Shown: positions 14,706-38,685 of the stretch, piece by piece
Position numbering within the stretch: position 1 is the first letter of the stretch
Layout of the letters: each line of letters begins with the position of its first letter
Assembly: GCA_020725105.1 (NCBI GenBank)
Contig: DYFQ01000008.1
Span: 22,794 to 84,771 of the forward strand
DNA: 61,978 bases
Reading direction: 5' to 3'
Source of the DNA: Symbiobacterium thermophilum
GTDB taxonomy: Bacteria; Bacillota; Sulfobacillia; DYFQ01
Notes under the pieces: generated by a model
What the model was told of the DNA's origin: nothing
Databases searched by the model: none
What the model saw: the letters and a program-made list of their open reading frames with translations, nothing else
Translations under genes and position numbers: made by a program

Positions 14706-14814
14706 CCGGTGCGCGCGGTGGACTGCGCCGGCGGGCTTGGAACTGTGCGAAACGGGCGCGCCGTGTGTCGCGTTATGGTAAGATAAACTTAGAGTGTCCA
14801 GCTCGCCCTGTCCA

Positions 14815-14898
14815 GAAGATAAGGCGATGGAGCTCGCCTGAATCGCCGCCAGCGGCTGATAGCTCCTGCGTCGGCACCCACCGGCGCGGGAGTTTTTT
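14815..14898 (+). promoter_or_regulatory. Fluoride (crcB-motif) riboswitch with intrinsic terminator, orphaned
   Basis: The aptamer begins at GGCGATGG (14823-14830); the closing CTCGCC follows, then GCCGCCAGCGGCTGAT and AGCTCCTGCG (to 14870). These are the conserved fluoride-motif elements in order. CTCCTGCGTCGG (14863-14874) then pairs with CCGGCGCGGGAG (14881-14892), followed by six T (14893-14898): a rho-independent terminator sharing the aptamer's 3' strand, the classic fluoride ON-switch layout. The sequence downstream is an inward-facing, gutted IS605 element, not a fluoride exporter, so the regulated gene appears lost or displaced. The nearest forward genes start at 15417. Confidence 0.85.
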
Positions 14899-14969: not shown

Positions 14970-15321
14970 GCGGGAGGCGCTGACCTCTCTTCCTGTCCTT
15001 CCAGTAGCGGGGCGGTCGCGGCCTCTGCTCAAGCTTTCCCTGGAGATGAAGCCTCCTGCTGGCGAAAAAGGAGCGCCACGCGGCGGCAAGCTTCTTCAGG
15101 GTTTCCTGGGCCATGTCCGAAGGAAGGGAACGGTACGCCGGATGGGACACCAACTCCGAACACAAGACTTGATAACCCGGCACCCCGCCACCCTGCAAAC
15201 ACGCCTGCCGGCAGCGGTAGTTGGCGGCGTTCCACAGCGCGGCGGCGCGGTCGGCGAGGACGCCGAGGGTTGCCTGCTGGTCCTTGGTTGGGAGGAGGCG
15301 GCGAACACTTGTACGCCTCAT
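14970..15321 (-). pseudogene. tnpB (IS605 OrfB-like) N-terminal remnant
   Basis: The reverse frame from 15321 reads RLLPTKDQQATLGVLADRAA and ALWNAANYRCRQACLQGGGV, then LSSDMAQ-type and AAWRSFFA segments, ending near RYWKDRK. This is the N-terminal helix-turn-helix part of TnpB. The zinc ribbon and the RuvC D-E-D residues of the remaining 250-300 residues are missing. The frame stays open to 14773 only by reading antisense through the fluoride riboswitch, so the coding match ends near 14970. Confidence 0.8.
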
Positions 15322-19542: not shown

Positions 19543-19630
19543 AAAAAACTCCTGCCACCACCCGTCGGTAGTGGCAGGAGCTATCAGCCATCTCGAGACG
19601 GCGGTTACGGCGAGCCCCATCGCCCTGTTG
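19543..19630 (-). promoter_or_regulatory. Fluoride (crcB-motif) riboswitch with terminator, upstream of the antiporter-uspA operon
   Basis: Read on the reverse strand, GGGCGATGGGGCTCGCC (about 19625-19609), then GATGGCTGATAGCTCCTGCC match the fluoride aptamer. CTCCTGCCACTA (19580-19569) pairs with TGGTGGCAGGAG (19560-19549), and six T follow (19548-19543). The design is the same as the copy at 14.8 kb: the terminator uses the 3' strand of the aptamer, so fluoride binding should allow transcription. The antiporter start lies about 40 bases beyond the terminator. Confidence 0.87.
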
Positions 19631-19741
19631 CCGCCAGCGGGGCCGGCAACCACGTACAGCATACGCGGCAAGCGCCCGGCAGTCAACGCCCTTCACGCCT
19701 CGGGGCACCCTGCTTCAGCCCCGGGACCTGCGGCCCAGACT

Positions 19742-35815: not shown

Positions 35816-35915
35816 CCGGCTCCTCCCTTTACGTTTCGCCACTCTGACTGATATCCTTACCGTTGATGGCCTGACGGCTGATAACCGTTCTCAAAGTCCG
35901 CGGAGGTGACGTGAG

Positions 35916-36164
35916 GTGGCCGACCGGAACCGCGTCAGCATCGAGTACTGCAACGCGTGAGGGTACTTCCCTCGCGCCGTCCGGGTGACGGAGGAACTGC
36001 TCAATTCGGATCTGGTGGGGCGCATCGGGGAACTGACCCTCATTCCGTCCAGCGGCGGGGTCTTCGAGGTGGCCGTCAACGGGAAGCTGGTCTTCTCCAA
36101 GAAAGAACTGCGGCGGTTTCCCGAGGAGGGCGAGGTCGGCCGCCTGGTCCAGGGTGAGCTTTAA
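35916..36164 (+). CDS. SelW/Rdx-family selenoprotein with in-frame TGA (CxxU)
   Basis: From GTG 35916, eight bases after GGAGGT, the frame reads MADRNRVSIEYCNA, then TGA (35958-35960), then GYFPRAVRVTEELLNSDLVG, IGELTLIPSSGGVFEVAVNG and KLVFSKKELRRFPEEGEV to TAA 36164: 82 residues with one recoded codon. The C-x-x-U site at residues 12-15, the thioredoxin-like beta-alpha-beta start and the SGGVFEV and KLVxSKKExxRFP segments are hallmarks of the SelW/SelT/SelH (Rdx) family, where the TGA position is Cys or Sec. A hairpin fitting a bacterial SECIS follows. Standard gene calling would split this gene. A redox role is expected from the family; the partner is unknown. Confidence 0.85.
35959..35991 (+). 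promoter_or_regulatory. Bacterial SECIS-like hairpin inside the selenoprotein gene
   Basis: CCGTC (35977-35981) and GACGG (35987-35991) form a perfect stem with loop CGGGT. The loop begins 22 bases after the TGA and has G at its second position, matching the usual rules for SelB-binding bacterial SECIS elements. A second small stem, GAGGG/CCCTC (35959-35963 with 35969-35973), starts in the TGA itself and could form a stacked base. Confidence 0.6.
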
Positions 36165-36282: not shown

Positions 36283-36495
36283 ATGGCACGGCTCGTCCGG
36301 CACGACCGGAACCGGCCGTACAAGATTGAGCAGACCGAGGTTACCAGGTTTCCGATCTGGGTCTGCGCCTGCGGGCTCTCTGATAACAAGCCCTTCTGCG
36401 ACGGGTCTCACAAGCGGACCAACGACGAGGCCCCCGACGCGCTGTACCTGTATGACGATGAGGGCCGGGCGAAGGTGGAGCCGGAGTACCTGTGA
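36283..36495 (+). CDS. CDGSH-type [2Fe-2S] protein
   Basis: A 70-residue protein from ATG 36283 behind GAGGAGGAGGGG. It contains the complete CDGSH ligand set, WVCACGLSDNKPFCDGSHKR (C-x-C-x-S-x3-P-x-C-D-G-S-x-H), binding a [2Fe-2S] cluster through three Cys and one His. It is cytosolic with a redox or cluster-transfer role in the family. It follows the selenoprotein in the same orientation with its own promoter-like element. Confidence 0.92.
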   Translation: MARLVRHDRNRPYKIEQTEVTRFPIWVCACGLSDNKPFCDGSHKRTNDEAPDALYLYDDEGRAKVEPEYL

Positions 36496-37063
36496 GCACC
36501 AGCTGAGGTCCGGGGCCGTGGCAGGTAGGGCCGGGGTCAGATGTCCCGGCCCGCTTTGCCTGCCCCAGCCACAGGCGGGACGCAAAGGCCAGGCAGGTCA
36601 CCTCGCCGCACTGCCCGCAGTTGCCGTAGCCGTGAGGGAGCCAGTGGTAGAGGTCCAGCGCCGACGGCCGGCGTCTCGCCTCGTGCCTGGGCGCCAGGCG
36701 GGCACGGGTCCGGGCTGTCTCGTTGATGAGGTCTCTGAGCCAGTCAACGGACTGGTAGGCGTCGGTGACGCTCAGGGCCTTGCCCAGGGTCATCCAGGTG
36801 GGGTAAAGGGCGAACAACCTCGGCCCCCGGGTGAAGCTCAGGCTCCTTGCGGAGTGAACGTAGACCGCGTTGGGCAGCACAGAGTTGAGGTAGGGGAACA
36901 GGTCCCCGACGTCCCGCGAGAACTCGGCCTTGAGCCGCATCATGGAGTCGTCCAGCAGGCACGGTTCCATGAACACGATGTCGATGCGGTCGAGATACGG
37001 ACCGCCCGGTCCGGGCTGTCCGCCGCCGGCGGCGGTCCGGTCCCCGAATTCCGTTGCCGTCAC
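36341..37063 (-). CDS. Fe-S protein with a CxxCxxxxC (FeS, PF04060-type) domain; extended 3' end
   Basis: From GTG 37063, overlapping the cysteine desulfurase stop. The conserved body holds DIVFMEPCLLDDSMMRLKAE, DLFPYLNSVLPNAVYVHSAR and LYPTWMTLGKAL, and a C-terminal motif YGNCGQCGEVTCLAFASRLW like the 4Fe-4S domain of corrinoid and acetyl-CoA-pathway proteins. The expected fourth Cys could be the one in DPGPTC, but its spacing is too long. The frame then runs about 50 residues of Arg/Gly-rich sequence antisense to the CDGSH gene (36341-36495). The true end is probably near 36500, and a 3' frameshift is likely. Confidence 0.7.
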   Translation of the reverse strand: MTATEFGDRTAAGGGQPGPGGPYLDRIDIVFMEPCLLDDSMMRLKAEFSRDVGDLFPYLNSVLPNAVYVHSARSLSFTRGPRLFALYPTWMTLGKALSVTDAYQSVDWLRDLINETARTRARLAPRHEARRRPSALDLYHWLPHGYGNCGQCGEVTCLAFASRLWLGQAKRAGTSDPGPTCHGPGPQLVLTGTPAPPSPGPHRHTGTARRGPRRWSACETRRRRACYQRARRRRPRSETW

Positions 37064-37776
37064 TGGGCCAGTTCCTCCAGGGCCCTGGCCAGGGCGTCCA
37101 CGTCCGAATCGTCGTTGAACGGGCCGAAACTGGCCCGGACCGTACCCCGCTCAAGGGTGCCGATGGTCCGGTGGGCCGAGGGAGAGCAGTGCAGTCCGGC
37201 CCGGACCATGATTCCGGGCCCGGTGTCCAGTCGGTGGGCCACCTCGGCCGCCGGTCGGCCGGTGAGGCTGAACGCGATCACCGCCACCTGGCGGTCGGGG
37301 TCGCGGGGTCCGTAGATCTCGAGACCGGGGATGGCGCTGAGGCGCTCGAGGGCCAGGGCGGTGAGGTCTCGCTCGTGCCGGCGGACGTTCTCCACCCCCT
37401 GTTCCAGCAGGAAGTCGACGGCCGCGCCGAGGCCGACGATGCCGGCCACGTTGAGGGTGCCGGCCTCGTAACGGTCGGGCATGGTCCTGGGCTGATACTC
37501 GACGGCCGACTCGCTGCCCGTACCCCCTTCCACCAGCGGCCTGGGGTCCAGCCCCTCCCGGATGTAGAGGCCGCCGGTCCCCTGCGGGCCCAGGAGACCC
37601 TTGTGTCCGGTGAAGGCCAGAAGGTCAATGCCCATCGCCTCCGCGTCAACAGGGTAGGCGCCGGCCGTCTGGGCGGCGTCCACCAGGAGCGGCACCCCCG
37701 CCGACCGGGTCGTGGCAGCAACTTCGGCCACCGGCATCAGGGTCCCCGTGACGTTGGAGGCGTGGCCCACCCGCGG
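37060..37776 (-). pseudogene. Cysteine desulfurase-like (class V aminotransferase) gene, 5'-truncated
   Basis: The frame is homologous from HASNVTGTLMPVAEVAATTR to the TGA at 37060. The PLP-lysine is in LLAFTGHKGLLGPQGTGG and the catalytic Cys region is VRAGLHCSPSAHRTIG, followed by GTVRASFGPFND. About 160 N-terminal residues expected for the family (the YLDNAATS start and PLP-phosphate loop) are absent. Upstream of about 37776 the frame becomes antisense to the HAD gene. Members of this group (the EF2568 type) are found beside selD and labile-selenium molybdenum hydroxylase genes, which is suggestive next to a selenoprotein and two such hydroxylases. Confidence 0.8.
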
Positions 37777-37839
37777 TTGTGGAGCGCAGGAAGTCGGCCG
37801 CCGGCCAGGTAATGGAGAGTCGGCAGGGAGGGCAGAGAG

Positions 37840-38685
37840 TTGAACGCCGGTTCCATCGCCGACCAGTACGACGCCTTCTTCTTCGATCTGGACGGAGTGC
37901 TTTACACGGGAGAGGTGGCGGTTGCCGGTGCCCCCGAGACCCTGGCCGTTCTCCGGTCCCGGCACAAGCAAGTCCGCTTTCTGACCAACAATCCGTGGCG
38001 GACGCGGGACGAGTTCGCCCGGAAGCTGGCCGGCCTCGGGTTTCAGGCTTCGCCCGACGAGATTGTCACCTCCGTGGCCGCCCTCGGCCACCTCCTGGCC
38101 GCCGCGCCGGACCTCCGTGGACAAACGGCCCTGGTGATCGGTTCCGACGCCCTGCGGGCGGCGGTCGTCGGGGCCGGCCTGCGGCTGACGGAGGACCCGG
38201 AAGCCCGGGACGCCGACGTGGTGGTGGTGGGCAGTCACGCCGGGTTTCACTACGGCGAACTGCGCGCCGCCTGCCAGGCCCTTCGTCGCGGCGCCCGGTG
38301 CTTTGCCACCAACCGGGACCCGACCTTTCCCATGCCCGACGGCCCCTGGCCGGGCACGGGCGCCGTCCTGGCCGCGGTGGAGGTGGCCGGGGGCTCCCGG
38401 GCGGAGGTGGCGGGAAAACCGGAACCCCACATGTTCGCCGCCGCCAGGGCGACGTTACCTCGCGGAGCCCGGGTGGTGGTGGTGGGCGACCGCCTGGACA
38501 CCGACATCGCCGGCGGCATCCGGGCCGGCCTGGCGACCGTGCTGGTTTTCTCCGGCGTGACCGCCCCGGGAGACGTGGCGTCAAGCCCGTACCGGCCGGA
38601 CCACGCCATCACGTCGGTGACGGACCTCCTGACGGAGCCGGCTCCCGTGTGGCGCCCCGGGCCGGATGCCGCCGGGGGAGGATGA
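37840..38685 (+). CDS. HAD-IIA family phosphatase (NagD/phosphoglycolate phosphatase type)
   Basis: A 281-residue protein from TTG 37840, nine bases after GGGAGGGC. HAD motif I is FFFDLDGVLY, motif II is RFLTNNPWRT, the C2A cap follows, and motif III/IV appear as VAGKPEPHMF and VVVGDRLDTDIAGGIRAGLA. It hydrolyses small phosphate esters in the cytosol; the substrate is not determinable. It diverges from the truncated desulfurase; the breakpoint of that deletion lies in the 60 or so bases between them. Confidence 0.9.
   Translation: MNAGSIADQYDAFFFDLDGVLYTGEVAVAGAPETLAVLRSRHKQVRFLTNNPWRTRDEFARKLAGLGFQASPDEIVTSVAALGHLLAAAPDLRGQTALVIGSDALRAAVVGAGLRLTEDPEARDADVVVVGSHAGFHYGELRAACQALRRGARCFATNRDPTFPMPDGPWPGTGAVLAAVEVAGGSRAEVAGKPEPHMFAAARATLPRGARVVVVGDRLDTDIAGGIRAGLATVLVFSGVTAPGDVASSPYRPDHAITSVTDLLTEPAPVWRPGPDAAGGG

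Follow-up and report, generated by a model that had tools for sequence, protein, structure and literature searches.

A SelW-like (Rdx family) gene whose in-frame TGA is almost certainly read as selenocysteine in a draft genome of Symbiobacterium thermophilum

The analyzed window, a contiguous stretch of 61,978 nucleotides from Symbiobacterium thermophilum (contig DYFQ01000008.1), carries on its forward strand a selW-like gene of the Rdx family at 35916-36164. The frame runs from a GTG start codon at 35916 to a TAA stop codon at 36162-36164, comprises 82 residues and contains a single in-frame TGA at 35958-35960, which is codon 15. A Shine-Dalgarno-like sequence, GGAGGTGA, was read at 35902-35909 (+), 6 nt 5′ of the start codon. 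Together with the TGC codon of Cys12 (35949-35951), the TGA delimits a CxxU redox motif at 35949-35960 (+), which translates to C12-N-A-U15 if the TGA is taken as selenocysteine (Sec). The read-through product would be VADRNRVSIEYCNAUGYFPRAVRVTEELLNSDLVGRIGELTLIPSSGGVFEVAVNGKLVFSKKELRRFPEEGEVGRLVQGEL, and the frame stays intact for 67 further residues after the TGA. Within this part of the coding sequence lies a bacterial SECIS apical hairpin, CCGTC-CGGGT-GACGG, at 35977-35991 (+). Simple gene finding would overlook this gene with a TGA in its middle.

The translated product matched the Pfam Rdx family PF10262 with 75.2 bits (cut-off 22.6), the NCBIfam model NF041051, 'SelT/SelW/SelH family (seleno)protein', with 92.4 bits (cut-off 88) and TIGR02174 with 60.4 bits (cut-off 34.2). 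It was the sole Rdx match in the whole source genome, an assembly of 2.74 Mb in 73 contigs that is 96.8% complete. The AlphaFold model reached a pLDDT of 90.5 and predicted a thioredoxin-like SelW fold; its top structure matches were bacterial SelW-related crystal structures with TM scores of 0.83-0.91, and thioredoxins followed lower in the list. The initial annotation had described an 82-codon frame with a good Shine-Dalgarno sequence, a TGA at the C-x-x-U position and Rdx/SelW sequence on both sides of it, and each of these claims was borne out.

With regard to codon 15 in relatives, 11 homologous frames were found in 10 of 60 other genomes of the class, each with exactly one TGA, and one TGA was present in 28 of the 31 matches from a phylum sample of 398 genomes. 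A scan of one genome per species yielded 80 loci from many phyla. These loci and those of the class form a set of 95 homologous frames, including the window's own gene and a few duplicates, in which codon 15 is TGA in 92 frames, TGC in two and TGT in one. Both CxxU positions are invariant in alignment A2 (with TGA read as C), and the identity of the protein to the relatives found is at most about 65%. Both the position of the TGA and the signal from the comparison are far beyond chance, as the initial annotation had already supposed for a TGA at just this residue. The counts of 92 TGA to three Cys codons also agree with published work, according to which Cys-type homologues of SelW-like selenoproteins are very rare or absent in organisms that use Sec (PMC1794560).

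The Rdx gene of Thermomicrobium roseum contains the TGA too. On its plasmid NC_011961.1 (L129:301-543), the 'Rdx family protein' annotated in PLSDB begins 3′ of the TGA, and both the Sec codon and the CxxU motif are cut off. Tandem pairs of selW-like genes were observed in two genomes (L033:1528-1899 on G054:C36, and L085:3714-4081), where each copy has its own TGA and its own hairpin.

The hairpin of the window's gene consists of CCGTC (35977-35981), the loop CGGGT (35982-35986) and GACGG (35987-35991). Counted from the TGA, base 17 is the first of the stem and base 22 the first of the loop, and the entire hairpin covers nt 17-31. The stem and loop had been named correctly before, but the stem had been placed 22 bases after the TGA, where in fact the loop starts. 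The bSECIS model allows an upper stem of 4-16 bp and a loop of 3-9 nt with G in the first two loop positions, located 16-37 nt after the UGA (model quoted in PMC13188914). With 5 bp, the loop CGGGT and 21 nt between UGA and loop, the selW hairpin fits this model and lies within the bacterial SECIS distance range, as previously claimed. In the single sequence, the hairpin is weak evidence and by itself not significant. Among synonymous recodings with the window's codon usage, a 5-bp hairpin carrying a G near the start of its loop arose somewhere in 38.7%, and in 14.5% a hairpin of this type stood at the exact place; the fold z-score of the short hairpin stretch was unremarkable (-0.5 to -1). 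When the sequence was folded by itself, the structure of lowest energy had the apical hairpin in a different register, TCCG-GGTGA-CGGA, and contained in addition a strong hairpin of 9 bp, GCGTGAGGG/CCCTCGCGC, pairing 35955-35963 with 35969-35977. This second hairpin would bury the UGA, overlaps the 5′ arm of the SECIS by one base and may be a by-product of the high G+C content. Folding of the sequence alone lent the SECIS hairpin no useful support.

Strong evidence for the putative SECIS comes from the comparison of 89 TGA-containing homologues in a gap-free alignment. Since no helix common to the whole set of 89 emerged from RNAalifold, the named five-pair structure was counted. Its pairs are formed in 82.7% of the cells, compared to 70.7 ± 1.2 in shuffles, and both sides were changed in 61 cells, compared to 14.1 ± 3.3. 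The covariation score was 0.416 against 0.224 ± 0.020 after shuffling, and it did not exceed 0.265 in any slid register. The shuffles break relatedness, the slid registers keep it, and the shuffle comparisons are not probabilities. Compensatory changes occur in four of the five pairs, and the distance from the TGA is fixed. All five pairs are formed in 55 of the 89 homologues, mostly with a loop of the type nGnnT; the stems seen include CCGCC/GGCGG, CCGTC/GACGG, CGGTC/GACCG, CTGCC/GGCAG, CTTCC/GGAAG, CGGCC/GGCCG, CCACC/GGTGG and CTGCG/CGCAG, and the main loops are GGTCT, AGGTT, CGTGT, AGTTT, AGTCT and CGGGT. None of the nine Cys homologues, which are also more distant, had all five pairs.

The remaining 34 homologues have another register or lack a helix. 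Many of them, chiefly from Tissierellia/Clostridia, form a different hairpin with the loop AGTT approximately 4 bases nearer to the TGA; such loci are L040, L049, L056, L063 and further Tissierellia/Clostridia loci of alignment A1. Tentatively, and at somewhat less than an even chance, the SelW SECIS may exist in two registers four nt apart, each with a G at loop position 2: nGnnU at nt 22-26 after the UGA in most lineages and AGUU at about nt 18-21 in Tissierellia/Clostridia. If true, this would point to a lineage-specific co-evolution of SelB and SECIS, by which residues 22 and 25 of the protein would be constrained as well.

The initial annotation had further implied that the organism possesses SelA, SelB, SelC and SelD, and all four genes were located in the source genome. 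Those of its proposed checks that were carried out all spoke in its favor. selA lies on contig C12 (603.8 bits), selB on C67 as an open frame of 657 residues (364.9 bits, two pieces of the match summed), selD on C17 (403 bits) and tRNA-Sec with the anticodon UCA on C48 (76.9 bits with Rfam, in agreement with ARAGORN). Besides the selW-like gene, two genes of this genome contain a TGA: selD, whose own frame is interrupted in ...SSKAG-U-GCKIGP, and an FdhA-like frame on C21, with a TGA in ...HQARI-U-HSSTVAG... followed by the hairpin TCGCC-GGTCT-GGCGA.

A tRNA-Sec-like tRNA with a GCA anticodon was observed as well, at 15153-15249 (-) of contig C42 (L008:1501-1597). It has U73, 8/4 acceptor/T stems and a long variable arm and was missed by ARAGORN, and a canonical tRNA-Cys is encoded separately on C31. 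The C42 tRNA fits the selC* tRNA-Cys class, which was reported in Firmicutes and others (PMC7609411). No selB* partner for it was found in the source genome, which yielded a single selB.

Could codon 15 be something other than a Sec codon? If the TGA were a sequencing error, or if a Cys-type Rdx gene had recently acquired a nonsense mutation, the gene would be a pseudogene or its protein would end at 14 residues, and it takes one base change to turn TGC or TGT into TGA. Cys homologues do exist, and the assembly is fragmented into 73 contigs. However, this explanation is contradicted by the 92 homologous frames, out of 95, that share the TGA at codon 15, by the frame that continues intact for 67 more residues, by the Sec machinery of the genome and by the covarying hairpin, and we consider it extremely improbable. 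Very improbable, too, is a TGA decoded as a different amino acid such as Cys or Trp, whether through a variant code or a suppressor tRNA. The Sec-like tRNA-Cys of C42 could be thought to deliver Cys in this manner, but its anticodon is GCA and not UCA, selA, selB, selD and a UCA tRNA-Sec are all present, and TGA serves as the stop codon of further genes in the window. We rejected both explanations.

The TGA at codon 15 is, judging from the sequence comparisons, almost certainly read as selenocysteine. When bacteria decode Sec, a complex of SelB, GTP and Sec-tRNA-Sec sits on the apical hairpin while the UGA occupies the A site, and Sec enters the growing chain. For the selW-like gene, SelD would supply selenophosphate and SelA would make Sec on tRNA-Sec, SelB with Sec-tRNA-Sec would bind the hairpin at nt 17-31 downstream of the UGA, and codon 15 would be translated as Sec rather than terminate the chain. 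The product would be a small thioredoxin-like protein in which Cys12-x-x-Sec15 most likely serves as a selenol/thiol redox center with a reversible selenenylsulfide, and this center is the likely active site. The gene, its TGA, the family, the predicted fold, the complete Sec machinery and the conserved covarying hairpin are established by computation; actual Sec insertion, redox activity and a physiological partner are what we infer. In our view it is very likely that the gene truly encodes a bacterial selenoprotein of the SelW-like (Rdx) family, with the proposed SelB/SECIS decoding and redox role. A selenol/thiol redox role is also the putative physiological function of the family as a whole; literature on the 'Rdx family' added nothing on its bacterial function.

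Bacterial SelW-like selenoproteins have been known since 2005-2006, Symbiobacterium included (PMC1088965, PMC1794560). SelW-like proteins with Sec ranked first in abundance among the families of the Sargasso Sea selenoproteome (PMC1088965), and the list of 2006 names Symbiobacterium thermophilum, Desulfotalea, Geobacter, Alkaliphilus and others (PMC1794560). The product described here resembles these proteins (PF10262; NF041051/TIGR02174) in the CxxU motif, length, SGGVFEV core, TGA and downstream SECIS hairpin and differs in sequence detail only, as expressed by the maximum identity given above. Its predicted fold is also that of the bacterial Cys-type Rdx structures (2fa8, 3dex, 2obk, 2oka, 2p0g, 2ojl), although these solved proteins are more distant, with 28-43% identity. 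In the plasmid-borne Cys-type forms that were checked, the motif is followed by W (CRWMLRA, CNWLLRA), and the hairpin does not form. Mammalian selenoprotein W (2npb) shares the CxxU motif, the thioredoxin-like fold and the family, but uses a eukaryotic SECIS in the 3′ UTR (PMC1088965), whereas the window's element lies in the coding sequence right after the UGA. New here are only one more family member, the quantified SECIS covariation and the register shift in Tissierellia/Clostridia homologues. With this work a draft genome gains one selenoprotein gene in its correct reading, and a clean alignment of 89 TGA-containing relatives is provided for a coding-region SECIS with compensatory changes, while the picture of the SelW-like family stays as it was. 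The case also recalls that annotation drops or truncates selenoprotein genes, as with the Thermomicrobium roseum Rdx gene; in Epsilonproteobacteria, SelW genes overlooked by annotation were reported in 2015 (PMC4607533).

Conserved neighbors beside selW (creatininase, CDGSH, amidohydrolase, cysteine desulfurase-like and HAD genes) were sought in relatives and not found. In the window, a CDGSH iron-sulfur protein gene at 36283-36495 (+) lies directly downstream of the selW-like gene, a gene absent beside selW in the relatives checked. A cysteine-desulfurase-like frame at 37060-38430 (-) matches only the last two thirds of its family (profile 143-376) and adjoins the HAD gene at 37840; since its N-terminal third is missing, it is a truncated gene or an assembly join. 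Further upstream, two fluoride riboswitches (Rfam RF01734) are located within 5 kb, at 14814-14875 (+) and 19568-19633 (-).
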